Assembly: GCA_034717495.1 (NCBI GenBank)
Contig: JAYELL010000107.1
Location: 1-63,311, forward strand
DNA from: Chloroflexota bacterium
GTDB lineage: Bacteria; Chloroflexota; Anaerolineae; JAAEKA01
DNA length: 63,311 bases
Direction of reading: 5' to 3'
Both the position numbers and the translations under genes were made by a program. Position 1 is the stretch's first letter. Each line of letters opens with the position of its first letter. A model generated the notes under the pieces. That model searched no databases and was not told the DNA's origin. It worked only from the letters and a program-made list of their open reading frames with translations. Shown here piece after piece: positions 33,073-49,153 of the stretch.

Positions 33073-36000
33073 CTATTGGGTTAGCCAACGCAGTGTCAGC
33101 GCCACGATCTCTCCACTGCGCTGCAATTTGGCGATGTCCAACGACTTGGCTCTGTCACGAACGCTGTTGATGTCGTCGTCAGCACCATCCCAGATCATCA
33201 AAACGGCTGGTACGTCCATCGTCTGGAACGGCGTATGGTCCCCTTCGTCCTTGCTGGAACGAACGTCAGCGCGAATGCCCAGCGCATCGGAGGAGGCGGA
33301 CAATGCCCAGTGCAGCAATGATTCCCGACGCCGATCCCCTTCGAAGGTTGGGAAGAACCCCTGTCCCCCCGCGATGCTGTCGAGGTTGATGACGCCCAGG
33401 GTCTGCGACAGGGGAAGGGTCGGTTGCGCCACGTAGACTGTCGAGCCCCGTTGGTCAAGCTCGTCGCCATCCCAGGCCGCGAAGAGCACCGATCGGGAGG
33501 GTTCCATCCCCTGCTGCTTCCAGGTTCGGGCTACTTCCAGAAGTACAGAGACACCGGAGGCGTTGTCGTTGGCACTGGAATAGAGGGTGCCGTCCGGCCC
33601 CATACCCGCGCCGTCGTAGTGGGCACTCAGGACAACGACTTCGTCTGCCAATTCAGGGTTGGACCCGGGCCAGAGGGCCAGCACATTGCGGCCCTGTTGC
33701 TCCTGGGGCTCACCCAGGGGAACGAGCGCCTCCGCTTCAAGGTCGAGGCGCAACACCTCAGGTGCCGTGTTCAAATCCCTCAGGGTGATCTCGCCAAAAC
33801 CCAGCAGAGCTTCAAAGGCATCTTTGGTCAACTGCATTACCGGCAGGGTTGGCGATATCGTCTGACTAAGGTCAACCGGCCGCCGGCTGCGAAGCTCGTT
33901 GGGTCCAATGTCGTTGGCCAGGATCAACGCGCCGGCGCCGGCCTCGGCTGCCCGGCGAACTTCCTCGTCCAATGCCTCCGATGGCTTGCGCAACGCCACC
34001 TTGCCGCCCAAGTTCATGTTGGTATAGTCAGAGTCCCGGACCCACACTACCTGCTCCCTGACGTCGCCGCCCAGGCCGTTGCCCTGCGTGAACTCCATGA
34101 AATCCTCGCGGTAGACCAGGGGCAGGCTTTCCCCGTTGCGATGCAAGGCCAGGACAGGCGTGGCTGCGGGCTGGGTCCGGGAAATGGCAAAGGTCTGAAA
34201 GTAGGAGCCATCAGCGCCGCCCGGAGCCAGACCCAGTTGCTGGAACTGGGCGGCGATGCTGTCACCGGCCAACCGGCCCCCTTCTGTACCGATTTCTCTG
34301 CCCTGGTACTGCTCACTGTCAAGGGTTTCGATCGATCCCATGGCGCGCTCGCCATCGAATGCCCGTGCCAGGGTTACCCAGTCGGCCGGGATGTGGTAAG
34401 CAGCCGAGGACTCCTTCCAGGCCTGTTCGAAATCCGCCAGTGAAAGGCCCAGCGCCGCCGGTATCGCGTCGATCAATGATGTGCTTTCGGAAAGCCTGGT
34501 CAGCAGATCATCCAGGCCCTGGCGGCCGTAGGTGTTCAACAGGTAGCGTGTGGCATCCCATCCCTGAGCTCGGGCCAGCGCTCGCTCGCTGATGGCCAGG
34601 CTTGCCGGCAGGGGCAGCTCTGCCAGGGGCCATAAGTTGTCCCGTTGAGCTGCCTTGGCTGCCTTACCGCTAAGACTGCCGGCCTGCTGCCAGCCGGTGC
34701 GCGGTGTTACCCATTGCAAGGCCAGGCGGCCCAGACCTGTGCGGAGCCACTGCGTTTCTGCCGACGATGAGATCCCGGCCTGAAGAAGCAGCTGCTCTAC
34801 CAGGCTGTCCAGCAGCCTGTTACGCACATCCTGCACATCAGAAGCCCGATCACCGGCCTCGGCCAGGACGCGGATCGATTGACCATTGCCGGTCCATGTT
34901 TTGAGAGCTTCAGGCGCGGTGAAACCGGACGCCAGGGCGAATTCCCTGTCGTTGTTGTACAGATTAACCACCACAGGAGCCGCAGGCAGTCCCAGTATTT
35001 CGCCGATCAAGGCATGTGCCTGCTCAATCTGTGGCAGCAATGCTTCGGCCAGATCGCGATTGCTATGGCGATAGCGCAGGGTTACCAGGTCGCCTGCCGT
35101 TGAAAGCCATTGCGGACCGCCATATTGGAGGCGGTTCTCCTGTTCGGGGAACACCGCCTGGAAAGTGGCCCGCTTTGGTTCGCCATCCTCTTGCCACGTC
35201 GCACTGATTGCTGCGAGTGCGCCATCGGCGGTCAAACCATCCAGCCTGGCGGTGAGTTCCAGGTCATCGGGACGATTGGCCTCATCCAGCAAGGCAGTGA
35301 ACCAGGTAGCTTCCTCGGAAAGCAGGGCGGGGTCCGCCGTGGCCACTGTGGACATGAACAGAGCCTGGTTGCCCTCGGAGATGGCCTGGGACCGGCGATT
35401 CATCAGCTCGGCGATCTGCCTATCGGCTCGTTGGAGGCGGTCCCGCCATTGGGCTTGCCAGGCCTGGTCGAAATCAGATGGGGATCGGCCAAGCACCTGC
35501 TGGAAGGCAAGCCTGGGATCATTGGACTCCGCCAGCGCTCTTGCCAGTTCGGGGACGATCTCCTCACCGTATTCCTGCAGGAGGAAACCGGTGGTGGCCC
35601 AGGCGACTGCCTGCCACGCGGAACTGCCGCCGGCAGGGTCCCGCAGCGAGGGGAAATCGTGTATCTGGTAGGGCACGGTGTCCTCCAGCATGGCTTTCAG
35701 GGAGGCCAGATACTGGCCTGGCTGAGCCTGACGGCCGGCGGAACTGGCGAAATGCAGGGGAAGCCCGTGCCACAGCCACGGCGCCGTCTCTTCCTGCAAG
35801 CCCAGTTGCGCCAGGGCCAACTGGGTGACGACGGTGGTGAGGGTTTCGGTACGGGTGATCTGTGAGCTGGCAATCAGGTGGACATTGTTGTCAACGACCC
35901 AGGTTTCCACGCTGTTGGGTAGGTTCAGGCCTGCGGCGACCTGCAACCGCTCCCGGGTTGGATGGAGATAGAAATCGCCGGGCGGCGCCTGTCGGGAAAT

Positions 36001-38142
36001 GCCCATCCGTTCCCGCACTGCCTCGTAGTTGTTCCCGGCCATTTCGAGTACTTCGTCGACGAATCTGTCCGGTTGATAGGCGTGATGGAGGATCAAGGAT
36101 GGGTTAGCCGTCGCTTCCAGGGCAGGCCCATCCAGCAGCCAGCGGCCCGTTTCCCGGGAGAACAGGGTTGGTCCGCTGAATCGTCGCACTACATCCCTGT
36201 CGGGGGAGCGCATTTCGTAGCGCAACGTGCCGGTGGCGACATCGCCGACCACAATCGGATTGGCAAGCAGGATATCGAGATGCTCCGGGGGAGCAACAGA
36301 GAGATCGAGCCACCAGCTTGCGGCCAGCGATCTCCGATCGGCCTCAAAGGTATCCAGAAAGGCATCCATATCTCGCTGGTCAATGGCTGTGCGTTGCTGA
36401 TCAAGCAGTTGTTCGAGTTCAGGTTCCACCGATGCAAAGGAAAACAGGGCCAGTTGTGCCAGTTCGCCTGCCGCCTGGAGTTTATCCGGATCGATGACGT
36501 TGATCTGGTCGATGGGACGGTGGTAGTGGGCCAGTCCGGGGTCGTCTGCGGCGTAGTCGGCAAACCAGATGATCATACTGGCATCCACGCCGGCAGCCCG
36601 GAAGGGTACATGGTCGCTGCGCCCGCCATCCTCCAGGGTAGCCGAGATACCCTTGCTGGTGGCCAGGGCGATGAACTGATCGGCCACCGGGCCAGTTCCG
36701 TCCACCGCCAGGGTATCGCTGCCTGCGCCCACCATGTCCAGGTTGAGATAGGCCACGGTTCTGGAGAGAGGAAGCGTCGGGTTTTCGACAAAGTAGCTGG
36801 AGCCCCACAGTCCCTGTTCCTCGGCGTCCCACGCCGCGAAGACCACCGAGCGGCGGGGCACGAAACCCTGCTCCTGCCAGTCCCGGGCGATTTCCAACAG
36901 AGTGGCGATGCCCGACGCGTTGTCGTTGGCGCCCCAATAGACAGCGCCATCGACCCGGCGACAGATCTCGTCGCCGTCGATATTCTCTCGTGTGCAGAGC
37001 AGCCCGTCCGGGTCATCCCCAAGGTGATCGAAGTGCCCGCCCACCATTACTACCTGGCCGGCGAAATCGGGATCGGAACCGGGAATGATACCAAGCACGT
37101 TGCGCGCGATTGCACCCGTTTTTTCTTCCAGTTCTACCTGGAGGTGAGCATGGGTTTGCAGAGGTGTCCCCTGGGCCTGGATGGTCAGATCTTCCAGGGT
37201 GAGGTCGCTGCCGGCCAGCAGATCATGGACCAGCGCGGGTTCTATGATGAAGGCAGGCAGGGGGACCGGCACCAGCGGAATTCGGTAGCGTCCAATGCGG
37301 TCGATGGGTCGTTCGTCCGGTGCACCGATCAATAGCAGGCCGGCAGCGCCATGCTCGATGGCGTTGCGGGTGACATCCTCGGCGCCACCTTGCCGGCAGA
37401 GCACGATCGTATCCACCGCGTCAACCTGGTCGAAGTCGGCGTGCCGGCAGTAGTTGGCCCAAACCAGCGGACCCTCGGCTTCCCCCTGGCCGGCGTAATC
37501 GCGCACAAAGGAGCTGTAGTCGGTGCGAAACTCGTAGGGTCCCAGGGCCTCACCGTTGGGGTCGAAGATTTCGAGGACAGGCGGGGTGGTGTAGCCGATG
37601 AAGTAGTCTAGGGGGAATTCCTGAAAAAAACTGCGTTCGCCGTCCCGGGTCAGATCCCCGGCTGGCTGCAGATCATAACGGGAAAAGGCGTCGGCGATGT
37701 ACTCGGCAGCCGCGCTGCCCCCTGCTGTGCCGGGCCGGCGGCCATCGAAGGGTGGCGCCGCAAGGATACCGATGCGCTCCATGGCCTGTTCTGCCGAAAA
37801 TGCCTCTGCCAGAGCCTCGTGATCTCCCTCGCGGGCGGCGTTGCCAGGTTCACGGAGCAGCGGCGTGGTTCCGATGTTGAGGGTGTTGGCAGTGGAAGGC
37901 TGACCAGCCATCCCGGTGGATTCTGCCAGGGCCGCGGTTTGGCCCTGGCCATTTCCTGTAGCGTCGGCCGGCACCAACTCTCCCGAACTGGCGCTCGAGG
38001 TGGTGGAGATTTCACCGGGCGTCCTGGTGATCTCATCGATTCGCTCATTTTGCTGGAACCACCAATAACCCAGGCCCATGGCCCAAGCCGTCAGGAGTAT
38101 CCAGGCAATGATGAGTAGGGGTTTTTGTTTTTCACTCGTCAT
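33073..38142 (-). CDS. Giant anchored protein: M28 peptidase - degenerate MA-like modules - second M28
   Basis: The 1689-residue protein has an N-terminal membrane anchor (about 9-28). A PA-like plus M28 aminopeptidase domain follows (about 110-570) with complete metal ligands: HFDH (about 370), GANDNASG (about 404), DAEEQG (about 440), NLDMVG (about 467) and SDHVPF (about 510). Residues about 690-900 and 950-1270 resemble gluzincin peptidase_MA modules (PWLWHGLPLHFASS, QWLRTGLGRLALQW), but the HExxH zinc helix is absent in both. A second PA/M28 unit (about 1290-1689) keeps HYDG, SANDNASG, NLDS and GDHTPF, but has Asp-Glu where the first has Glu-Glu, changing the catalytic base. It should act outside the membrane. 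It is last in the permease run. Confidence 0.88.
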   Translation of the reverse strand: MTSEKQKPLLIIAWILLTAWAMGLGYWWFQQNERIDEITRTPGEISTTSSASSGELVPADATGNGQGQTAALAESTGMAGQPSTANTLNIGTTPLLREPGNAAREGDHEALAEAFSAEQAMERIGILAAPPFDGRRPGTAGGSAAAEYIADAFSRYDLQPAGDLTRDGERSFFQEFPLDYFIGYTTPPVLEIFDPNGEALGPYEFRTDYSSFVRDYAGQGEAEGPLVWANYCRHADFDQVDAVDTIVLCRQGGAEDVTRNAIEHGAAGLLLIGAPDERPIDRIGRYRIPLVPVPLPAFIIEPALVHDLLAGSDLTLEDLTIQAQGTPLQTHAHLQVELEEKTGAIARNVLGIIPGSDPDFAGQVVMVGGHFDHLGDDPDGLLCTRENIDGDEICRRVDGAVYWGANDNASGIATLLEIARDWQEQGFVPRRSVVFAAWDAEEQGLWGSSYFVENPTLPLSRTVAYLNLDMVGAGSDTLAVDGTGPVADQFIALATSKGISATLEDGGRSDHVPFRAAGVDASMIIWFADYAADDPGLAHYHRPIDQINVIDPDKLQAAGELAQLALFSFASVEPELEQLLDQQRTAIDQRDMDAFLDTFEADRRSLAASWWLDLSVAPPEHLDILLANPIVVGDVATGTLRYEMRSPDRDVVRRFSGPTLFSRETGRWLLDGPALEATANPSLILHHAYQPDRFVDEVLEMAGNNYEAVRERMGISRQAPPGDFYLHPTRERLQVAAGLNLPNSVETWVVDNNVHLIASSQITRTETLTTVVTQLALAQLGLQEETAPWLWHGLPLHFASSAGRQAQPGQYLASLKAMLEDTVPYQIHDFPSLRDPAGGSSAWQAVAWATTGFLLQEYGEEIVPELARALAESNDPRLAFQQVLGRSPSDFDQAWQAQWRDRLQRADRQIAELMNRRSQAISEGNQALFMSTVATADPALLSEEATWFTALLDEANRPDDLELTARLDGLTADGALAAISATWQEDGEPKRATFQAVFPEQENRLQYGGPQWLSTAGDLVTLRYRHSNRDLAEALLPQIEQAHALIGEILGLPAAPVVVNLYNNDREFALASGFTAPEALKTWTGNGQSIRVLAEAGDRASDVQDVRNRLLDSLVEQLLLQAGISSSAETQWLRTGLGRLALQWVTPRTGWQQAGSLSGKAAKAAQRDNLWPLAELPLPASLAISERALARAQGWDATRYLLNTYGRQGLDDLLTRLSESTSLIDAIPAALGLSLADFEQAWKESSAAYHIPADWVTLARAFDGERAMGSIETLDSEQYQGREIGTEGGRLAGDSIAAQFQQLGLAPGGADGSYFQTFAISRTQPAATPVLALHRNGESLPLVYREDFMEFTQGNGLGGDVREQVVWVRDSDYTNMNLGGKVALRKPSEALDEEVRRAAEAGAGALILANDIGPNELRSRRPVDLSQTISPTLPVMQLTKDAFEALLGFGEITLRDLNTAPEVLRLDLEAEALVPLGEPQEQQGRNVLALWPGSNPELADEVVVLSAHYDGAGMGPDGTLYSSANDNASGVSVLLEVARTWKQQGMEPSRSVLFAAWDGDELDQRGSTVYVAQPTLPLSQTLGVINLDSIAGGQGFFPTFEGDRRRESLLHWALSASSDALGIRADVRSSKDEGDHTPFQTMDVPAVLMIWDGADDDINSVRDRAKSLDIAKLQRSGEIVALTLRWLTQ

Positions 38143-38180: not shown

Positions 38181-39458
38181 TCAGTAAACTGGCTGCCAGG
38201 CTGGCTGGCTATTATTTCCCTGGTCCTCGGTGATCTGGGTCGTCGCGCTGCCCAGATCATCGACCAGGTGGATCAGCATGTCGCCATCGGGCACAAAGCC
38301 TCGACCGCTGGCTGTGTAGTGCTGGGATACGAAAGCGGCCTGGCGTCCATCGGGGGACCAAACGGGCACAAAGGCAGGATCGGCGACTCGCTGGCTCAGG
38401 TTGGTCAACTCGTCGTCGGCGATATCCAGGCTGTAGATGTCGGGCGCTGAGTTGCCTGTGCCGCCCATGAAGATCAAACGGTTGCCGTCGGGGTGCCAGG
38501 ACATCCTGGTGAGAAACTCGAAGCCCAATCCACCCATGAGCATGGTCGTATCGCGTCCCGTTTCCAGCTCGTAGATAATCAGGCGCCGTCGTCGCCGTCC
38601 CGTGTCTTCGATCTCTCTGAATACCGCCAGCTGGCTGCCATCGGGGGAGAGCGCCGAGTCCAGGATGGTGCCTTCGATCAGCAGCTCGGGTGGTCCACCA
38701 TCCAGCGCAAATGCATACATTCCCTGGCCATCCTCGCCATCCAAAGCCAGAAAAAGGGTGTTGCCATCGTTGGAGAATAGAATGGCCAGGTTGCTCTGGG
38801 CCTGGCTGATAGAAATGCCAGCGCGCCCGGCCAGGAGGTCCACCGGCTCCAAGTCTGCTTCGTTGGGATTAAAAAGCAGCAGTTGGGCTTGATCGTTCTC
38901 ATTCCTTTCGTTGTTTTCGTCGCTGTCCTCGATGAAGAAAATGGCCGCCCTGGTGAAATCCTGGCTATGACCGCCGCTTTCCACCCAGCCTCCCCTCTTT
39001 TGCATGATCAGCTGGCGGTCGCCGCCGTCGGGCGTGGCCGAATGGACGCTGACTGTGTCGGTGGAATCGCCGAAGACACCGTTATCGTTGGTATCCTCGA
39101 TCCGAGTCCAGATCAGGCGGGATCCGTCGGAAGGCCAGAAGGGATTTTCATCCATTCCCTCGTTTTCGGTGATACGCAGCTGATCGCTGCCGTCAGGCTG
39201 CATGACGTAGATCTCATCGTTGCCATCTCGGTCAGAGACAAAGGCGATCAACCCGTTGCGGGCGTTGCCGAGGGCTTGCGGCGGGCTTGCGATTGCCTGG
39301 TCGGTATCCGATTGGGTACTTTCCACGACTGCTTCGACCATGCCTGCCGGTTGGGCGGTTTCAGCAAGGCCGCGTTGGCGTACAGCCAAATAGACAGACC
39401 CTGCCAACAACATGAGTGCCACTATTCCAGTGATTGTCCACGCCAGTCTAAGGTTCAT
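38181..39458 (-). CDS. Membrane-anchored TolB-like beta-propeller (PD40 repeats)
   Basis: The 425-residue protein has one N-terminal membrane helix (about 7-27) and a linker. A propeller follows with PD40/WD40-like repeats, each with a PDGSQL or SPDGRQ turn (DRDGNDEIYVMQPDGSDQL, WPSDGSRLIWTR, LSPDGSQLAVFR, WHPDGNRLIFMGG, WSPDGRQAAFVSQHY). TolB-type propellers bind partner proteins or peptides outside the cytoplasm. The gene lies six bases after the permease-peptidase fusion and 38 bases before the giant M28 protein. It may be a docking part of that set, but this is inference. Confidence 0.85.
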   Translation of the reverse strand: MNLRLAWTITGIVALMLLAGSVYLAVRQRGLAETAQPAGMVEAVVESTQSDTDQAIASPPQALGNARNGLIAFVSDRDGNDEIYVMQPDGSDQLRITENEGMDENPFWPSDGSRLIWTRIEDTNDNGVFGDSTDTVSVHSATPDGGDRQLIMQKRGGWVESGGHSQDFTRAAIFFIEDSDENNERNENDQAQLLLFNPNEADLEPVDLLAGRAGISISQAQSNLAILFSNDGNTLFLALDGEDGQGMYAFALDGGPPELLIEGTILDSALSPDGSQLAVFREIEDTGRRRRRLIIYELETGRDTTMLMGGLGFEFLTRMSWHPDGNRLIFMGGTGNSAPDIYSLDIADDELTNLSQRVADPAFVPVWSPDGRQAAFVSQHYTASGRGFVPDGDMLIHLVDDLGSATTQITEDQGNNSQPAWQPVY

Positions 39459-39464
39459 GGTTGC

Positions 39465-41990
39465 TCACCAGCTTGCATCCCGGCTGACCACAATCAGGGC
39501 CAGGTTTATCGCCGCACCAGCTTCCTGTAGCATCTCCGCTGAAAGAAGATCAATGGTGTCCCTGCGGATGTCGATCTCTGAATCGATTCGTTGGATGACG
39601 ATGTTGGGTATTTCACGCCGCAACACCTGTTGATAGTCGTGGTGCAGGGGATCACCCCGCCGGACGTCAACGCCCAGGTCGCTGGCAGTGCGTTCGACCA
39701 GGTCGGCGACCCGTTCCGGCCTCTGGCTGATTTCCAGGGCATCGCCGCCGGCTCCCAGCCGGGTTAGGTTGAATCCAGCGACGGGGTTTAGTGGTCCAAC
39801 TGGTCCTCCATAACTCTCGACATAATACTCGGCGCCCGACTTGGTCAATTCCGATCCGGTCAACACAGCGAAGAGTACCGTCCGGCGGGGGGTATAATCC
39901 TGCTCGTGCCAGAGCCGGGCAATCTCCATCAGGATACCGATTCCGCTGGCGCTGTCGTTGGCGCCGTCGTAGCGGACACTGCCATCGGGTTCGATACCGG
40001 GTGAATCGTAATGCGTGTTGATCACCACCAGCTGTTGGTTGAGGGCCACATCCTGGCCCGGATAGTAGCCCAATACGTTGTTTATCGTAACCCGTTCCGG
40101 TTCCGTCAATTCTACCTTGATTTCAGCCTGTACAGGAAGCGGGGCTTCGAGCCACGCACTGCCACCCGAATCTCTCAGATCGGCGACCTGCTCTTCCAGC
40201 GCTTCCAGGCTTGACCCCCCGGCCTTCAATAACCTATCGGCCGCGTCGGGCGACAGGGCCAGCACCGGAAGGGTAGGTTGTCGCAGGTAATCCTTCTCCA
40301 CATCGGCCAGGTGAAAAGTACTCCTCAACTTCAGAGGATCCTCTTCGACAAGGATGACTGCTTGCGCTCCCCGGATCAACGCTTCGGTGGTAAAGCCGTC
40401 GGGCATGTTGTGGCCCAACGCCAGCACGATACGATCGCGCAGATCCATCCCTCGGTAGCTTTCGTTGTCCCAGCGGCGCCGACCAAAGGCGATGGCGGTG
40501 ATGGGGGCCTGGGCCTCGCCACTGCCGGCGTGGTCGTCGATGCGCACGCCGAAGTCAATCTGGTGATCAAAGTTTTGCACCAGCTGTCCCGACGGGTCGA
40601 CAAGCCTTAGCTGCGGCGTGCCCAGGGGCTTTACCAGATCGGTCTCGATCTTCTGAAAGTAGGAGCGCCCGCCGCCGGCTGGTTGCATGCCGTATGCTTC
40701 GAACCTGGCGGCGATATAGTCCGCCACTGCGTCATGACCGGCGCTGCCTGCCCGTCGACCTTCACTGGACTCTGTCGGCCCGGCAGGGTCTGCCAGTTCA
40801 AGGATGTCGGAGGCAGTCGCCAGGGCAGCCTGCCCATCGAAGGTCTGAGCCAGGCGGGCGTAGGATGGCGCCGGCCCAACATTGTTGATGATATACCAGG
40901 TGGCGGCAACCACCATGACGACGACCACCAACATGCGTTTACTCAGCAGCATAGCCGTGTTCACGCCGGCGTGTTCGATCAGGCGACGTAGTCCCTCGCC
41001 CATGGCGTTGAAGCCGAGAACTGCCAGGAAAAAGGCCATGGCAGGATATAAGACCATCCAGGGGCGGCCGCGGGCCCAAACGCGGCTGTCGGCCATCATG
41101 GCGCCCCATTCGGGAATGTCAGGAATGGTCGCAGAGACCTGGAAGATGTTTTCCTGCTGGGTGCCGCCCCCCATAAACACGCTGACGAATCCCAACTCAC
41201 CCAGCAGCATCAGGGTCGCGCCCATCTCCAGGAGGGAGATGACTATCAGAGCTGGCAGGATATTGGGCAAGACGTGCCGGACGGCGATGGCGGAGCCTGT
41301 CAGACCCATGGCCCTGGCCCCCTCGATGAACGGCCGGTTGCGCAACACCAAGAACTCGCCGCGAATATACTGGGCGATCTCACCCCAGCCAACAACACAG
41401 AGGGCGATCAAAAAGACGATGATTCCCTTGCGAATGTCCAGGGCAAAGATAAGGATCATGCCGGTCAGAAGCAATGGCAACGCGGTGGTGACGCCGACCG
41501 TGCCCATGATGAACCGATCCATGCTCTCCCCTTCGTTCCAGCCGGCAAGGATACCCAGGATCGTGCCAAGCAGCACTCTTGCCATAGTGATGAAGGTGGC
41601 GGCAACCATGGTATTGCGGGTGCCATAGAGCAGCAGGCTGAGAATATCCCGGCCCCACTGATCGCTGCCCATGGGTTGTTGGGGCGAAGGTGGAAAGGGA
41701 GGCGACTGAAGTTTGCCCTCCACCATGGTCAGGCTGGTGGTGCCAACCAAATAAGGATTCTCCGGTGCGAAAAGGGGGCCGAAGAGGGTGATGAAAAAGA
41801 GAAAAACCACGATCACCATGCCCACCATCAGGGGCAAGTTCATCACCAGGTTGCGAGCGCTGACCCGCGGCCGGGAATGGGCTATCCTGGTTCCCGGATC
41901 CTCGTCCTCGGGCCTGGGCGGCAGCTGGAGGTTGCTGAAATCCGGTTTCCCGTTTAGAAACCGTTTCAGCGTGCGTGCGTGATCAGTCAT
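39465..41990 (-). CDS. DppC-type ABC permease fused to an inactive-looking M28 peptidase domain
   Basis: The first ~350 of 841 residues are an oligopeptide/dipeptide permease. They comprise the N-terminal OppC region, about six membrane helices, QQPMGSDQWGRDILS and the ATPase-contact EAA loop EGARAMGLTGSAIAVRHVLPN. A further helix (about 360-382, MLVVVVMVVAATWYIINN) crosses the membrane. A PA-like plus M28 domain follows (about 390-841), with the leader RRAGSAGHDAVADYIAARF shared with the giant neighbour. It keeps HYDS and GANDSASG, but the catalytic Glu-Glu is Ser-Glu (GSELTKSG) and the Asp of NLD is Thr (NLTRLG). It therefore probably binds rather than cuts peptides. It starts nine bases after the DppB-type gene. 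Confidence 0.9.
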   Translation of the reverse strand: MTDHARTLKRFLNGKPDFSNLQLPPRPEDEDPGTRIAHSRPRVSARNLVMNLPLMVGMVIVVFLFFITLFGPLFAPENPYLVGTTSLTMVEGKLQSPPFPPSPQQPMGSDQWGRDILSLLLYGTRNTMVAATFITMARVLLGTILGILAGWNEGESMDRFIMGTVGVTTALPLLLTGMILIFALDIRKGIIVFLIALCVVGWGEIAQYIRGEFLVLRNRPFIEGARAMGLTGSAIAVRHVLPNILPALIVISLLEMGATLMLLGELGFVSVFMGGGTQQENIFQVSATIPDIPEWGAMMADSRVWARGRPWMVLYPAMAFFLAVLGFNAMGEGLRRLIEHAGVNTAMLLSKRMLVVVVMVVAATWYIINNVGPAPSYARLAQTFDGQAALATASDILELADPAGPTESSEGRRAGSAGHDAVADYIAARFEAYGMQPAGGGRSYFQKIETDLVKPLGTPQLRLVDPSGQLVQNFDHQIDFGVRIDDHAGSGEAQAPITAIAFGRRRWDNESYRGMDLRDRIVLALGHNMPDGFTTEALIRGAQAVILVEEDPLKLRSTFHLADVEKDYLRQPTLPVLALSPDAADRLLKAGGSSLEALEEQVADLRDSGGSAWLEAPLPVQAEIKVELTEPERVTINNVLGYYPGQDVALNQQLVVINTHYDSPGIEPDGSVRYDGANDSASGIGILMEIARLWHEQDYTPRRTVLFAVLTGSELTKSGAEYYVESYGGPVGPLNPVAGFNLTRLGAGGDALEISQRPERVADLVERTASDLGVDVRRGDPLHHDYQQVLRREIPNIVIQRIDSEIDIRRDTIDLLSAEMLQEAGAAINLALIVVSRDASW

Positions 41991-41999
41991 TGTCGTTCA

Positions 42000-42917
42000 T
42001 CAGGCGGCCTGGTCGCGCAGCCGGGGGTCGATAAAACGATACATAACGTCCAGCGCCAGGTTGACCAGCAAAAAGGTAGTGCCCAGGGCCAGGGCCAGGG
42101 CAGCGACCACCTGCGTCTCGCCGTTCTGGATTCCAAGTAGTAGACGATTGCCCAGGCCGGGCCAACCGAAAAAGAACTCGACCACTGGTAGTGTGCCCAG
42201 GGCAAAGCGCAGCGAGATGGCTCCAGCCGTGAAGATCGGGACCGCGGCATTGCGCAGGGCATGTCCGTTGATTACCTGTCTGAGGCTAAGCCCTTTGGCC
42301 GTTGCGGTGCGAATGTAATCCTGGCCCAGGACTTCACCAAGGGTCACAAAGGTTACGCGTGTGATGTAGGCAACCGGGCGGGCCGATAGCACGATGAGTG
42401 GGAAGAGCATGTGCCGCCAATCCCAACCGAAACCACCGACGAAGGCGATGCGTATCCCATAGTTCTGCACTACCTTGATGGAGAGCATCTGCAGGAGCAT
42501 GGCAACGAAAAAAGAGGGAATCGAGATACCGATGACCGTTGCCGAAAGCAGTGCGAAGGATGCCAGCGATGTTCGTCGCAGCGCCGCAATGGTGCCCACC
42601 AACAGGCCCAACAGGGTCGAGATGACCAGAGAAGCAAGCAACAGCCCCATGCTGTTGACATAAGTTTCCTTAAGGATGTCGGTAATGGGTGTGGCGTGGT
42701 CACGGCTGACCTGCACCGCGCCCAGGTCTCCTTTTATCAGGTTGATGAAAAAGGTTTCCGTTTCGCCCACCGCAGCCTGGGCGTGGCGGCCAATGCGGTA
42801 ATCGGGCCTGGGTGCGGTGGAATTGCGGGCCATACGCATGCCCAGGAAAACGAAGAAGACGATGGCAATAGCGACCACGAGGATAAAGGTGGCCCGACGG
42901 AGTGCGAATGAGATCAT
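42000..42917 (-). CDS. DppB/OppB-type ABC transporter permease
   Basis: The 305-residue protein has an N-terminal membrane helix (about 8-28) and an extracellular loop. Five more helices follow with the permease domain (PF00528), including the EAA-like loop DYIRTATAKGLSLRQVINGHALRN and PVVEFFFGWPGLGNRLLLG. It would form a heterodimeric channel with the fused DppC-type permease encoded nine bases downstream. No ATPase (DppD/F) or solute-binding protein gene lies beside it, so these must be encoded elsewhere if the transporter works. The start lacks a clear ribosome site. Confidence 0.92.
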   Translation of the reverse strand: MISFALRRATFILVVAIAIVFFVFLGMRMARNSTAPRPDYRIGRHAQAAVGETETFFINLIKGDLGAVQVSRDHATPITDILKETYVNSMGLLLASLVISTLLGLLVGTIAALRRTSLASFALLSATVIGISIPSFFVAMLLQMLSIKVVQNYGIRIAFVGGFGWDWRHMLFPLIVLSARPVAYITRVTFVTLGEVLGQDYIRTATAKGLSLRQVINGHALRNAAVPIFTAGAISLRFALGTLPVVEFFFGWPGLGNRLLLGIQNGETQVVAALALALGTTFLLVNLALDVMYRFIDPRLRDQAA

Positions 42918-44744: not shown

Positions 44745-47654
44745 ATGAACGGAATGCTTGCCTTTATCCTTGTGACGCTGATGGCGGTCCATTCCATGCC
44801 GGCCCCGGGTGCTGGCATGCCTGGTCCGGCGCGGCCTGTTTTCCTGACGCAGTCCCCACCGGCACCCACCCGCTTAACCCAGCTGGATCGGTTCGGTGAT
44901 CTCCCGCTGGCAGATCTGCTGGGTGAGCCGGAGATTGGTTTTCGTTTCCAGGTCCTGAGTTCGCCCGGTGATCTTCTTCGGGCTGAAGTCGAACTGCGGC
45001 CCACCGGCGAGGCTTTCAACCAGGCCAATCTCGTCGGCGACCCTGTGCCGGCTGGCGGAACCGCCCAGTGGCTCGAGGTTTGGAATCGCGATCGGTTGCG
45101 ACAAAGCGGCTATCACTGGCGGGCACGGGTTGTGGGGTCAGGAGGCGCCAGCGCCTGGGTCAACTTCGGCGACAACAGTGACACGGTGCAACCTCCAGCC
45201 CGATTCGCCGATGCCGATTTCTATAACCTGCACGAACCGATGGTGGCCTATCCAGACCCGCCTGCGGGATTCGAGGGCCTGGCACGGATTGGGCAACTTC
45301 CTCTGCTGGTCCCATCGGTGCAAACCTTCCAGGTGTCTTCATTTGATCGAAGCGAAGGCAACGCGGATGGGGGAAGCGAAGAACCGGGTCTGGAGACCTA
45401 CTTCTACCGGGAGGGGGCAGCAGAGGTCGTGCTGGAGGCAAAGGGTCCTGGCCAGATCAACCGCATCTGGTTTGCCGAATCCAACGACCCGTCCTTTGTC
45501 AATACCCGCCTGCAGGTGTTTTTCGGCGGCGCCACGGAGCCGACCATTGATCTGCCTGTGGTGGACTTGATGTCGGGCGAGGTGCCGCCCTTCGTCGAGC
45601 CTTTCGTCTTGAATGCCGACCGTTCATCGGGGGGACTGATCTCCTATGTTCCCATGCCATTTCGGGATGGGGTCAAGGTACGATTCGCAGGACCCCACGC
45701 GCACTATCAGATCACCTATCAGTTGTTCGCTGAGCGGGGGAACATCGAGACCTTCACTGGCAACGAGGATTATACGCTCGCGCAGCACCTGTGGCGACGC
45801 ACCGGCCTGGATCCCAAGCCCACGCGAGGCAATGAAACAGAGCAGATCGATGCGAACCTTGCATCGGGCGCTACTGTGATGCTCGTTGACCTGCAAGGTC
45901 CGGGGGCGCTGCAGAGTCTGCGGCTGCAACTTCCCCAGCTTCAGACAACCATTTACAGCGACCCGCCCCTGGAGGACACAGTCCGGGCCCATCTGGCAGG
46001 GGAGTCTCGCTTTCATCTCAGACCGCTTTTTTCCGATACGCCGACGCGGCTGCGAATGCGACGCGGTTGCCGTTTCGCGCCCCAGACTGCAACGGTCTTC
46101 GCTGGCGGGGCGGAACTGGGCCAGTGGATGCGCCAGGAGGGCAACGATCGCAACCGCTGGTGCGACGACAGTTTTTACCTGCCGTCGGACGTGGTTCTGG
46201 CAGGCATGCCCATCGACCTGCGGCTGGTCAGCGAGTCGACCGGCCATCCCTGGGAGGAGGCCCGCTACTGGCTGGAGCAACTCGATCTGGGCCATTGGCG
46301 GACTGCCGACGAACTGGATGTGGGCGATGTTCTGTCGGAGCAGGAACATGGCTACAGCATCGCGGGGCAGACAGGCTTTGGATTACAGGTCAACACCTAT
46401 CCGGCGATCGTTGTATCCAGGCCGGACAGCCAGGCGCTGCTGGCAGGGCTGCGATTGCGAATCACCGCGGACGACCATGAGACAGCGGATGTGGATATCC
46501 CGGTTGGTGCCTTCTTTGGCTCAGCCGTTGGTGAGACGAACATCGAGTCGCTGATGGCTGGCATACAGCCAGAGAGGCATATCCTCTACTCCTATTGGCC
46601 CATGCCCTACGCCCATAGGCTGAAGATTGAATTGGTGAATACCAGTCACATACCTGTTCATGCCATGCATGCTGAGATTGCCTACGACCATACGGTCTAT
46701 CCTTCACCAGGACGCCACACTGGCTATTTCCGGTCAGCGGAGTATCTTTCCCGGCCAACTGAAACGAGCACCGACCACGGGCTGATCCATGCCCGGAGCG
46801 CGGGCAAACTGGTGGGTCTGCACCTCCTGGTGCACTCGGGCAACGAAGCCTTCATCGAGGGGGATGAACGCTGGCATGTGGACGGTGCGCGAACGCCTCA
46901 GGTACGGGGCACGGGCACGGAGGATGTCTTCAACGGCGGTTGGTACTACAATCGAGGCCGTATTATTCGGCCGGTGCACGGTGCCAACAGTACTAGGCTG
47001 GAGGGCTGGATCGATCAATACCGCTGGTTTCTCAACGATTTCATCTCCTTCGCAGACCGTCTCGATGGCGGCATCGAACATGGCCCGACCAACGATATCA
47101 ACGGTGATTATTCATCGTGGACCTTTGCCTACGCGGCCGAAGGCAGCGCGTTGCTTGGAACGGACAGTGTGGATCTGGACGACCCCGATTCGATGATGGA
47201 TCACCAGGTTGAACTATCTGGACCGGTGCAGCCTTTTCAGATGGTCGGCCAGTTTGAGGGCGACGACGATTCGCTGGTTTCGGATGGCGGATTGCAGTTG
47301 CAGGCGGGATCGGTGCTTTCGGTCACGCTGGCGGTGGATCCGGCAGCGCGTCAGATTCTACTGCGCCGGCGCTACGACCAGGGTGAGAACAAGGAACAAC
47401 TTCGGGTCTGGGTCGATGGGCAGCAGGCTGGCTTCTGGGTGGACGGGGGCCGAAATACCAGCAGGCGTTGGCGGGAGTCGATTTTCCTGGTGCCGCCGGA
47501 ACTGACGGCGGGTAAAGGCCGTGTGATGGTGCGTTTCGAACCAGTGTCGTGGGCCGGCAGCCAGGGTGCAACGATGGCCCGGTTGACAGCGCTCAGCCAA
47601 TACCGGGCCGAGCATGACATGTGGTTGCCCATGGTTATCGTCAATAGTCATTGA
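44745..47654 (+). CDS. Secreted DUF2961/GH172-like protein
   Basis: The 969-residue protein has a signal peptide (about 1-25). It then has a beta-rich N-terminal domain with a fibronectin-like SGYHWRARV pattern (about 80-125). From about 200 it has features of DUF2961, now glycoside hydrolase family 172: VSSFDRSEGNADGG, YFYREGAAEVVLEAKGPGQINRIWF and ISYVPMPFRDGVKVRF. A later RGTGTEDVFNGGWYYNRG matches the conserved GTGTEDYF signature. Known GH172 enzymes act on fructofuranose or arabinofuranose. Several positions commonly conserved there differ here (PVVDLMSG, ITYQ), so activity is uncertain. A consensus promoter directly precedes the start. Confidence 0.8.
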   Translation: MNGMLAFILVTLMAVHSMPAPGAGMPGPARPVFLTQSPPAPTRLTQLDRFGDLPLADLLGEPEIGFRFQVLSSPGDLLRAEVELRPTGEAFNQANLVGDPVPAGGTAQWLEVWNRDRLRQSGYHWRARVVGSGGASAWVNFGDNSDTVQPPARFADADFYNLHEPMVAYPDPPAGFEGLARIGQLPLLVPSVQTFQVSSFDRSEGNADGGSEEPGLETYFYREGAAEVVLEAKGPGQINRIWFAESNDPSFVNTRLQVFFGGATEPTIDLPVVDLMSGEVPPFVEPFVLNADRSSGGLISYVPMPFRDGVKVRFAGPHAHYQITYQLFAERGNIETFTGNEDYTLAQHLWRRTGLDPKPTRGNETEQIDANLASGATVMLVDLQGPGALQSLRLQLPQLQTTIYSDPPLEDTVRAHLAGESRFHLRPLFSDTPTRLRMRRGCRFAPQTATVFAGGAELGQWMRQEGNDRNRWCDDSFYLPSDVVLAGMPIDLRLVSESTGHPWEEARYWLEQLDLGHWRTADELDVGDVLSEQEHGYSIAGQTGFGLQVNTYPAIVVSRPDSQALLAGLRLRITADDHETADVDIPVGAFFGSAVGETNIESLMAGIQPERHILYSYWPMPYAHRLKIELVNTSHIPVHAMHAEIAYDHTVYPSPGRHTGYFRSAEYLSRPTETSTDHGLIHARSAGKLVGLHLLVHSGNEAFIEGDERWHVDGARTPQVRGTGTEDVFNGGWYYNRGRIIRPVHGANSTRLEGWIDQYRWFLNDFISFADRLDGGIEHGPTNDINGDYSSWTFAYAAEGSALLGTDSVDLDDPDSMMDHQVELSGPVQPFQMVGQFEGDDDSLVSDGGLQLQAGSVLSVTLAVDPAARQILLRRRYDQGENKEQLRVWVDGQQAGFWVDGGRNTSRRWRESIFLVPPELTAGKGRVMVRFEPVSWAGSQGATMARLTALSQYRAEHDMWLPMVIVNSH

Positions 47655-47679
47655 CATTCGGGTAGCTCTCGATTAGAAT
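47651..47679 (+). promoter_or_regulatory. Promoter of the C39-TPR lipoprotein gene
   Basis: TTGACA (47651-47656) begins at the stop codon of the GH172-like gene, and TAGAAT (47674-47679) follows after 17 bases. Transcription should start near 47686, which excludes an ATG at 47678 as the start codon. Confidence 0.8.
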
Positions 47680-47758
47680 GGCCAGACAGCGCCGCGGCAT
47701 GGGTTGGCGAACGATCGGATTGGAGAGAGACTGGAAAGCAGGGCGCTGCGACAACCTA

Positions 47759-49153
47759 ATGGAGGACCATCTGACTTCTTCGAAGACACGCGACCAGGCA
47801 CCTTTGCGCCTCTTGCTGACCGCGGCCGGCACCCTGCTGCTGGGTGCCATCCTGCTTCTTCTGCTGGTGGGCTGCGCTCGCTACGGGGGCGCGGAAGGAC
47901 TGGTCAAACGCATCCAGGTTGAGCTCGCCTCCCAGAAACCCCATCCCGAAATGGTGCCAACACCGCTGCCGACGCCGACGCGCGCTGCTGCTGAGACCAA
48001 TGGTCCATCGCCAACGGCTGCTGCTTCAACCCCGCTGGAAACGCTTGTGCTATCGCCATCCTCCCCCAGCGCGGTGGAATCAGCGGAACAGACACCGGAC
48101 GCCGATCTCGCTGATTCAGTTCCCGATGAGCCAACACCGACACTGATAGCGACTCCGATGGCGCCTTCTGCCAGCCCGACCGCTGCAGGCTTGCCCGTGG
48201 CGCTTGCGTTGGAAGGTTTGTCTCATTATTGGCAGACCTGGAACAACTGTGGCCCTGCAACCCTGGCGATGAATCTGAGCTACTTCGGCAGCACCTTGAG
48301 CCAGGAGGAGACAGCGGCCGTTCTCAAGCCGGACGACGACGACAAGAATGTCAGTCCCCGGGAGATGGCGGAATTCTCGCGGGCGCTGGGATTGCGGGCG
48401 TTGGTTCAGGTCAATGGCAATCCGGCCGTTTTGCGCCGGCTGCTGGACGCCGGCGTTCCCGTGTTGATCGAAACCTGGCTGGAGCCTGAGCCAAACGATG
48501 GCATGGGCCACTATCGTCTGCTAACAGGCTTCGACGACTCGCGGCGGCAGTGGATCGTTTATGACAGTTACGTCAGCGAGGGAGTCGATCCCGAAAAGCC
48601 CTATGCGGGCATCCGGTTGAGTTACGATGAGACGGAAGCGCTGTGGCGGGTATTCAACCGGACCTATCTGGCAATCTTCGATGACGCGCGAGCGCCGGCT
48701 GTGCTGGAAATCCTGCGTGATGAGGTTGATGCCGGAACGATGTGGACGCGGTCGAGGGCAACCGCCCAGGCTGAGGTCGAGAGACAGCCGGACGATGCCT
48801 ACGCCTGGTTCAATCTGGGCAGCAGCCTGGTCTCGCTGGGCCGGTACGACGAGGCTGCCAGTGCCTTCGACCGGGCCCGGGTGATTGGTTTGCCCTGGCG
48901 AATGCTTTGGTACCAGTTCGGGCCCTTCGAGGCCTATTTTGAGACGGGGCGATTCGCCGAGGTCATTGCTCTGGCAGATGCAACTATCGCCACGGTCGAC
49001 AACATCGAGGAGATTCATTTTTGGAAGGGCAAGGCGTACCAGGCGACGGGTGACCTGCAAGCGGCCCGAGCGGCTTTAGAACAGGCCATCGGTTACAACC
49101 CAAACTTCGTTGGGGCGGTTGAGGCCCTGGCGGAATTGGGAACCACCGACTGA
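47759..49153 (+). CDS. Lipoprotein with C39-like peptidase domain and TPR repeats
   Basis: The 464-residue protein has a hydrophobic N-terminus ending in LLVGCARY, a lipobox-like site near residue 39. A Ser/Thr/Pro linker follows. The papain-fold Peptidase_C39_2 domain (about 150-300) has NCGPATLAMNL with the catalytic Cys, MGHYRLLTGFDD with the His, and IVYDSY with the Asp. The C-terminal TPR array (about 340-460) includes PDDAYAWFNLGSSLVSLGRYDEAASAF. It may be an extracellular thiol peptidase or a peptide-binding module. The frame opens at 47678, inside the -10 box. ATG at 47759 gives a normal signal, and ATG at 47699 is an alternative. Confidence 0.83.
   Translation: MEDHLTSSKTRDQAPLRLLLTAAGTLLLGAILLLLLVGCARYGGAEGLVKRIQVELASQKPHPEMVPTPLPTPTRAAAETNGPSPTAAASTPLETLVLSPSSPSAVESAEQTPDADLADSVPDEPTPTLIATPMAPSASPTAAGLPVALALEGLSHYWQTWNNCGPATLAMNLSYFGSTLSQEETAAVLKPDDDDKNVSPREMAEFSRALGLRALVQVNGNPAVLRRLLDAGVPVLIETWLEPEPNDGMGHYRLLTGFDDSRRQWIVYDSYVSEGVDPEKPYAGIRLSYDETEALWRVFNRTYLAIFDDARAPAVLEILRDEVDAGTMWTRSRATAQAEVERQPDDAYAWFNLGSSLVSLGRYDEAASAFDRARVIGLPWRMLWYQFGPFEAYFETGRFAEVIALADATIATVDNIEEIHFWKGKAYQATGDLQAARAALEQAIGYNPNFVGAVEALAELGTTD

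Follow-up and report, generated by a model that had tools for sequence, protein, structure and literature searches.

A conserved fusion of a DppC-type permease to a degenerate PA/M28 peptidase domain in Anaerolineae

RESULTS

One reading frame joins a permease, an extra helix, and an M28 domain

A binding protein is the defining component of type I ABC importers, and a gene in a 63,311-nucleotide stretch of DNA from a Chloroflexota bacterium (GenBank assembly GCA_034717495.1, contig JAYELL010000107.1; hereafter, the window) raises the question of whether a peptidase-derived domain tethered to the permease could act in its place. The original prediction was that this gene encodes a DppC/OppC-type permease fused in frame to an M28 domain, and this was confirmed by an uninterrupted open reading frame (ORF), with an ATG start and no internal stops, by its Pfam domains, and by structure matches. 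The features of the fusion are as follows:

39465..41990, minus strand: DppC permease, extra transmembrane helix, and PA/pseudo-M28 ectodomain (841-aa ORF; Pfam and model)
40980..41567, minus strand: BPD_transp_1 core of DppC, residues 142-337 (Pfam)
41301..41330, minus strand: coupling (EAA) helix FIEGARAMGL, residues 221-230, contact for the nucleotide-binding domain (NBD)
40875..40949, minus strand: extra helix TM7, residues 348-372, which would take the chain outside (model helix 352-371)
39468..40874, minus strand: putatively extracellular PA + pseudo-M28, residues 373-841, with S713 and T743 (Pfam, alignment, and structure match)

The Pfam domains follow in the order OppC_N (residues 48-86, 8.9e-6), BPD_transp_1 (142-337, 1.8e-15), and Peptidase_M28 (638-828, 4.5e-19). 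An AlphaFold2 model of the 841-aa fusion was built from 18 relatives (mean pLDDT of 78) and used in a structure search by VIA-align, in which the matches listed were M28/PA and DppC chains only. In the model, residues 39-340 resemble E. coli DppC (8z1x_B; Z of 27.3, rmsd of 2.5, 273 residues aligned, 32% identity). In the C-terminal part, for which a comparison with M28 structures had been proposed, residues 372-841 match the PA-containing M28 aminopeptidase 2ek8 (Z of 31.3, rmsd of 4.0, 382 aligned), and transferrin receptor 1 is also among their matches (Z of about 28). The leading matches of this part are all M28/PA proteins and span the whole domain; those listed include no solute-binding protein (SBP) fold, a silence of the list that is uninformative and that leaves untouched the proposal of an SBP-like function.

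TM7 bears Lys-Arg near its start and joins the permease to the PA/M28 domain. Since the C terminus of DppC is intracellular, this one further helix would, by the positive-inside rule, place the PA/M28 domain outside the cell, as originally predicted.

The fusion is conserved and monophyletic in Anaerolineae

Surveying genomes for further DppC-M28 fusions, as had also been proposed, we scanned 84,980 species and obtained 443 relatives. The best 79 of the 443 loci were fetched; all are from Chloroflexota, mostly labelled Anaerolineae, and those with the fusion include the chromosome record CP070811. In addition, among 298 species sampled from the window's class, 66 matched a profile of the joint, including the one-contig genome G713; a few of these matches cover the M28 side only. 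Full-length homologues are spread over many families of that class (identities of 61, 50, 48, 47, and 46% outside the window's own family), and the window's own genome encodes a paralog. Given these homologues, the 79 loci, the class survey, and the paralog, we rejected an assembly or frame error at the joint, a doubt attached to the original prediction; CP070811 and G713 likewise favor a genuine fusion. A further doubt, that the two parts might always be separate genes in relatives, was answered in the same direction, as the relatives are fused too.

The family occurs in short, middle, and long builds. The short build (C-M28, about 820 aa) has a separate DppB gene and is that of the window protein. 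The middle build (B-C-M28, about 1,200 aa) includes the paralog of the window's genome (C1:204166-207897, equivalent to L039:4167-7898 and also given as G000:C1:205408-207885), which was modeled with a pLDDT of 84. The long build (NBD-B-C-M28, about 1,450 aa) adjoins MacB/FtsX and HlyD genes. One locus (L075:1862-10112, plus strand) has a single DppB followed by three tandem DppC-M28 paralogs.

In a DppC tree of 110 rows, the M28 fusions form one clade (98/91), which takes in contig-edge fragments first labelled canonical, and a second DppC tree recovered the same clade for the Anaerolineae set (98/91). Permeases with M28 or propeller ectodomains split from canonical DppC at 100/100; one DppC without a large ectodomain (L150) falls inside this noncanonical group. 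Collectively, the Anaerolineae fusion is conserved and monophyletic. NCBIfam holds no curated model of the fusion and matched it with permease models only, all below cut-off, and our literature search found no paper describing M28-permease fusions. The part of a Thermoflexus paper that lists M28 peptidases and OppABCDF-type transporters reports no fusion (PMC8129789).

The M28 domain has lost catalytic residues and is maintained

Active sites were read by alignment to the intact M28 domain of the neighboring gene. In the window's domain, His660, the bridging Asp679, and the metal-binding Glu714 are all kept, the catalytic Glu is replaced by Ser713, and a metal-binding Asp is replaced by Thr743; the retained His and Asp and both substitutions had been read correctly in the original prediction. 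The second metal-binding His aligns with Tyr786, and His783 and His784 lie 2-3 residues off, at a site that sequence cannot settle. None of the 91 non-identical fusion proteins retains all six metal/catalytic residues, and the catalytic Glu is aligned in about 3 of the 91, counts to be read with an unsure placement of the second-His column, where the loop aligns poorly, and a Glu column that shifts by one in a few rows between alignments. In the long-form clade, Gln mostly replaces the first His, and Arg the metal-binding Asp.

The ectodomain displays dN/dS values of 0.07-0.37 (pairs with 68-97.5% identity; dS nears saturation in the more distant pairs), which indicates that the catalytically dead domain is maintained. 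The DppC part evolves more slowly (0.04-0.24, and about 0.04-0.15 for most pairs). As judged from sequence, it is established that the Anaerolineae ectodomain lost catalytic residues yet stays under purifying selection. This selection, together with the occurrence in many families, led us to reject a recent one-off pseudogene. Chance juxtaposition was rejected by the dN/dS values and by a plasmid negative control, in which 72,556 plasmids yielded 8,163 matching places, none of them covering 80% of the fusion protein.

The fusion gene is grouped with DppB and an intact M28 peptidase

The fusion gene lies in a minus-strand run of DppB, DppC-M28, PD40/TolB-like, and M28-MA-M28 genes, separated by gaps of 9, 6, and 38 bp. 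Its neighbors in this run are:

42000..42917, minus strand: DppB-type partner, 305 aa, with coupling helix YIRTATAKGL and without the SBP-docking scoop
38181..39458, minus strand: PD40/TolB-like beta-propeller protein, 425 aa, with an N-terminal hydrophobic stretch
33073..38142, minus strand: M28 - MA-like - M28 protein, 1,689 aa, with an N-terminal anchor

In the 1,689-aa protein, the first M28 domain has all six metal/catalytic residues, and it is intact in 10 of 10 alignable relatives. In the second, which varies among relatives, Asp takes the place of the catalytic Glu, and the middle domain between them is Peptidase_MA_2-like, without the HExxH motif. Many short-form loci repeat this gene order, with the PD40 gene present or absent. 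Promoter and terminator scans gave no more matches than shuffles, and the operon boundaries therefore rest on gene spacing. Elsewhere in the window, the gene for a DUF2961 protein of 969 aa (44745-47654, plus strand) precedes one for a C39-like peptidase that carries TPR repeats (47678-49153, plus strand).

The DppB partner lacks the docking scoop

In E. coli DppB, a scoop between TM1 and TM2 enters the DppA cleft, and its removal impairs import (PMC12136057). The scoop motif (PGGP...LDxP) was found in 0 of 82 fusion partners or in-chain DppBs versus 17 of 17 canonical DppBs, nine of them from the window's genome and eight from other loci; L068:101, listed under other loci, is a fusion partner and was counted as one. 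The Fisher p of about 2e-19 for this contrast assumes independent counts and is overstated by relatedness. More specifically, canonical DppBs have PG(G/D) and LDxP-like motifs, whereas the 82 fusion-associated DppBs have no PGxP and one chance LDxP. The distance from TM1 to TM2 is 78-102 residues in canonical DppBs and typically 60-81 in fusion partners.

No SBP_bac_5 gene was found on the window's contig, whereas at least 12 occur elsewhere in the genome, and no SBP gene adjoins any short-form fusion. Several long-form loci adjoin a canonical Dpp operon that is complete and includes an SBP. The earlier suggestion that the ectodomain replaces a solute-binding protein gains support from the loss of the scoop in 82 of 82 DppBs and from a window contig without an SBP gene. 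Scoop loss fits any SBP-free mode, export included.

Related permeases carry intact M28 domains or beta-propellers

Family f74, which by kinship belongs to another class, has DppC-M28 fusions in which all six M28 residues are intact (4 of 4):

L149, 7737-10106, minus strand: intact-site fusion
L183, 7309-9846, minus strand: intact-site fusion
L184, 7610-10762, minus strand: intact-site fusion
L185, 2369-5515, plus strand: intact-site fusion

An M28 lipoprotein-like gene adjoins at least three of these four, and a fifth fusion of the family (genome G415) has a very degenerate site. In the tree, the fused M28 domains of Anaerolineae group weakly with the neighboring M28x2 domains, and the intact-site fused domains group with their neighboring lipoproteins, so that the fused M28 may have arisen by either one fusion or two.

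Sister permeases of about 750 aa consist of DppC, an extra helix, and a PQQ-type beta-propeller, and 3 of their 4 genomes belong to the family of the window genome:

L145, 9798-12044, plus strand: propeller-bearing DppC
L146, 9071-11368, plus strand: propeller-bearing DppC
L147, 5263-7512, minus strand: propeller-bearing DppC
L148, 680-3007, plus strand: propeller-bearing DppC

The DppBs paired with the intact-site and propeller permeases likewise have no scoop motif.

ATP supply

The loop predicted to contact the ATPases is present at residues 221-230 of the fusion, and coupling helices are kept in the DppC and DppB halves of the window's permease (FIEGARAMGL and YIRTATAKGL) and across the family, where a simple pattern failed to detect the helix in 14 of 91 DppC and 10 of 58 in-chain DppB. 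The window's operon has no DppD/DppF-type NBD genes, and in a pattern scan of 91 cases, one had a same-strand NBD within 5 kb, although some of the loci are truncated where their contigs end. All 12 oligo_HPY ATPase matches in the genome fall within six complete Dpp-type operons, and no orphan oligo_HPY NBD was found. We infer that NBDs are supplied in trans, from elsewhere in the genome. In the same genome, two canonical clusters of SBP, DppB, and DppC (G000:C53:47850-51388, or L193, and G000:C103:25319-28508, or L198) have no oligo_HPY ATPase in their vicinity, a pattern suggestive of shared NBDs.

The long build carries its own LolD-like NBD, inspected in five loci:

L045, 8350-12678, minus strand: NBD-DppB-DppC-M28
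L053, 64-4464, minus strand: NBD-DppB-DppC-M28
L092, 7180-11508: NBD-DppB-DppC-M28
L113, 7084-11451: NBD-DppB-DppC-M28
L115, 3500-7960: NBD-DppB-DppC-M28

All five have lost the signature motif, two of them have also lost Walker A, and no further NBD was found at these loci, which lie beside MacB_PCD/FtsX and HlyD. Such degenerate fused NBDs would sit ill with ATP-driven transport by the long form.

DISCUSSION

We propose, with nearly even confidence, that the window encodes a DppBC-type permease whose tethered, dead PA/M28 domain replaced a free SBP in peptide import, with NBDs acting in trans. The anchored M28 protein of the operon, with its intact first site, would trim peptides at the cell surface; the pocket of the tethered pseudo-M28 may capture or gate the products, probably by the N terminus as M28 aminopeptidases do, and would pass them on to the DppB/DppC pore. 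NBDs from other parts of the genome would then engage the conserved coupling helices and power import. More tentatively, and somewhat short of an even chance, the window's permease may belong to a scoop-less DppBC lineage without free SBPs in which interchangeable tethered ectodomains (an intact M28 in one class, a dead M28 in Anaerolineae, and a beta-propeller in others) recognize the substrate; a single transporter family would then show a peptidase being turned into a receptor.

The lack of both an SBP gene and a DppB scoop would also suit an SBP-free DppBC-type exporter, whose M28-like ectodomain chaperones the exiting peptide or other solute or, where active, processes it. The permease halves also match SapB/SapC profiles, though more weakly than others, SapBCDF of the same permease class is a reported putrescine exporter (PMC12772348), and the NBD-fused form adjoins an export set, MacB/FtsX and HlyD. 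We nevertheless regard export as unlikely, since the permease halves match Opp/Dpp/Nik importers best and the operon carries surface peptidases and no evident precursor peptide. A permease that transports nothing, being instead a membrane anchor, scaffold, or sensor that arranges the pseudo-M28, PD40, and active M28 proteins, seems distinctly unlikely: both coupling helices are kept, which an anchor would not need, and the permease evolves more slowly than its ectodomain in most pairs (dN/dS of about 0.04-0.15), even though no NBD lies nearby, the NBDs fused in the longest form are degenerate, and a propeller takes the place of the ectodomain in sister permeases.

The many free SBPs of the genome, and the several long-form genes that follow a complete canonical Dpp operon, would suit a conventional SBP-dependent importer with the pseudo-M28 as an accessory domain and with either that domain or the pore as the docking site of a free SBP from elsewhere; the missing docking scoop (82 of 82) and the short-form fusions, which never adjoin an SBP gene, make this quite improbable. 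It is highly improbable that the ectodomain still hydrolyzes peptides through an unusual or single-metal site, as part of a peptidase-coupled transporter. The window's domain does keep His660, Asp679, Glu714, and the nearby His783/784, and a related family has the fusion with all six residues intact, but only about 3 of 91 proteins still have the general-base Glu, and the long-form clade has mostly replaced the first His and the metal-binding Asp.

If the tethered domain is indeed a receptor, a widespread lineage that lost its docking element would have found, in a peptidase-derived ectodomain, a new way for a type I permease to choose its substrate, and a bacterial parallel to nicastrin and transferrin receptor would exist for the M28 fold as a receptor. 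Since the intact-site fusion persists in another class, the peptidase-to-receptor conversion is directly testable.

With E. coli DppBCDF and DppA (8z1v/8z1x; PMC12136057), the window's permease shares the DppC fold with its six core helices, the coupling helices, and a DppB partner. It differs from that system in the TM7 and PA/M28 ectodomain added to DppC, in its scoop-less DppB, and in an operon without an SBP or NBD gene. The PA insert and M28 fold over residues 372-841 are those of the PA-containing M28 aminopeptidases (2ek8 from Aneurinibacillus, BSAP 6hc6, and PaAP 8ac7; Z of about 30), whereas the window's domain has its catalytic Glu and metal-binding Asp replaced and is tethered to a permease. 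The domain fused in OpuA and GlnPQ has the substrate-binding-protein fold. Those systems also hold an external receptor domain covalently in the permease chain (PMC11065425, PMC8025302), a receptor role that is proposed here, but the window's fused domain has a peptidase fold. An M28 fold outside the membrane without peptidase function is also found in nicastrin and transferrin receptor 1; the nicastrin ectodomain, attached to a membrane machine, has been proposed as a substrate receptor (PMC2647162). Both are, in contrast, eukaryotic, with unrelated membrane partners and no transport protein. Finally, the SapBCDF putrescine exporter (PMC12772348) has a permease of the DppBC class that reportedly operates in export, a mode without need for a binding protein; it differs from the window fusion in having no ectodomain, in encoding its own NBDs in the operon, and in exporting its substrate.
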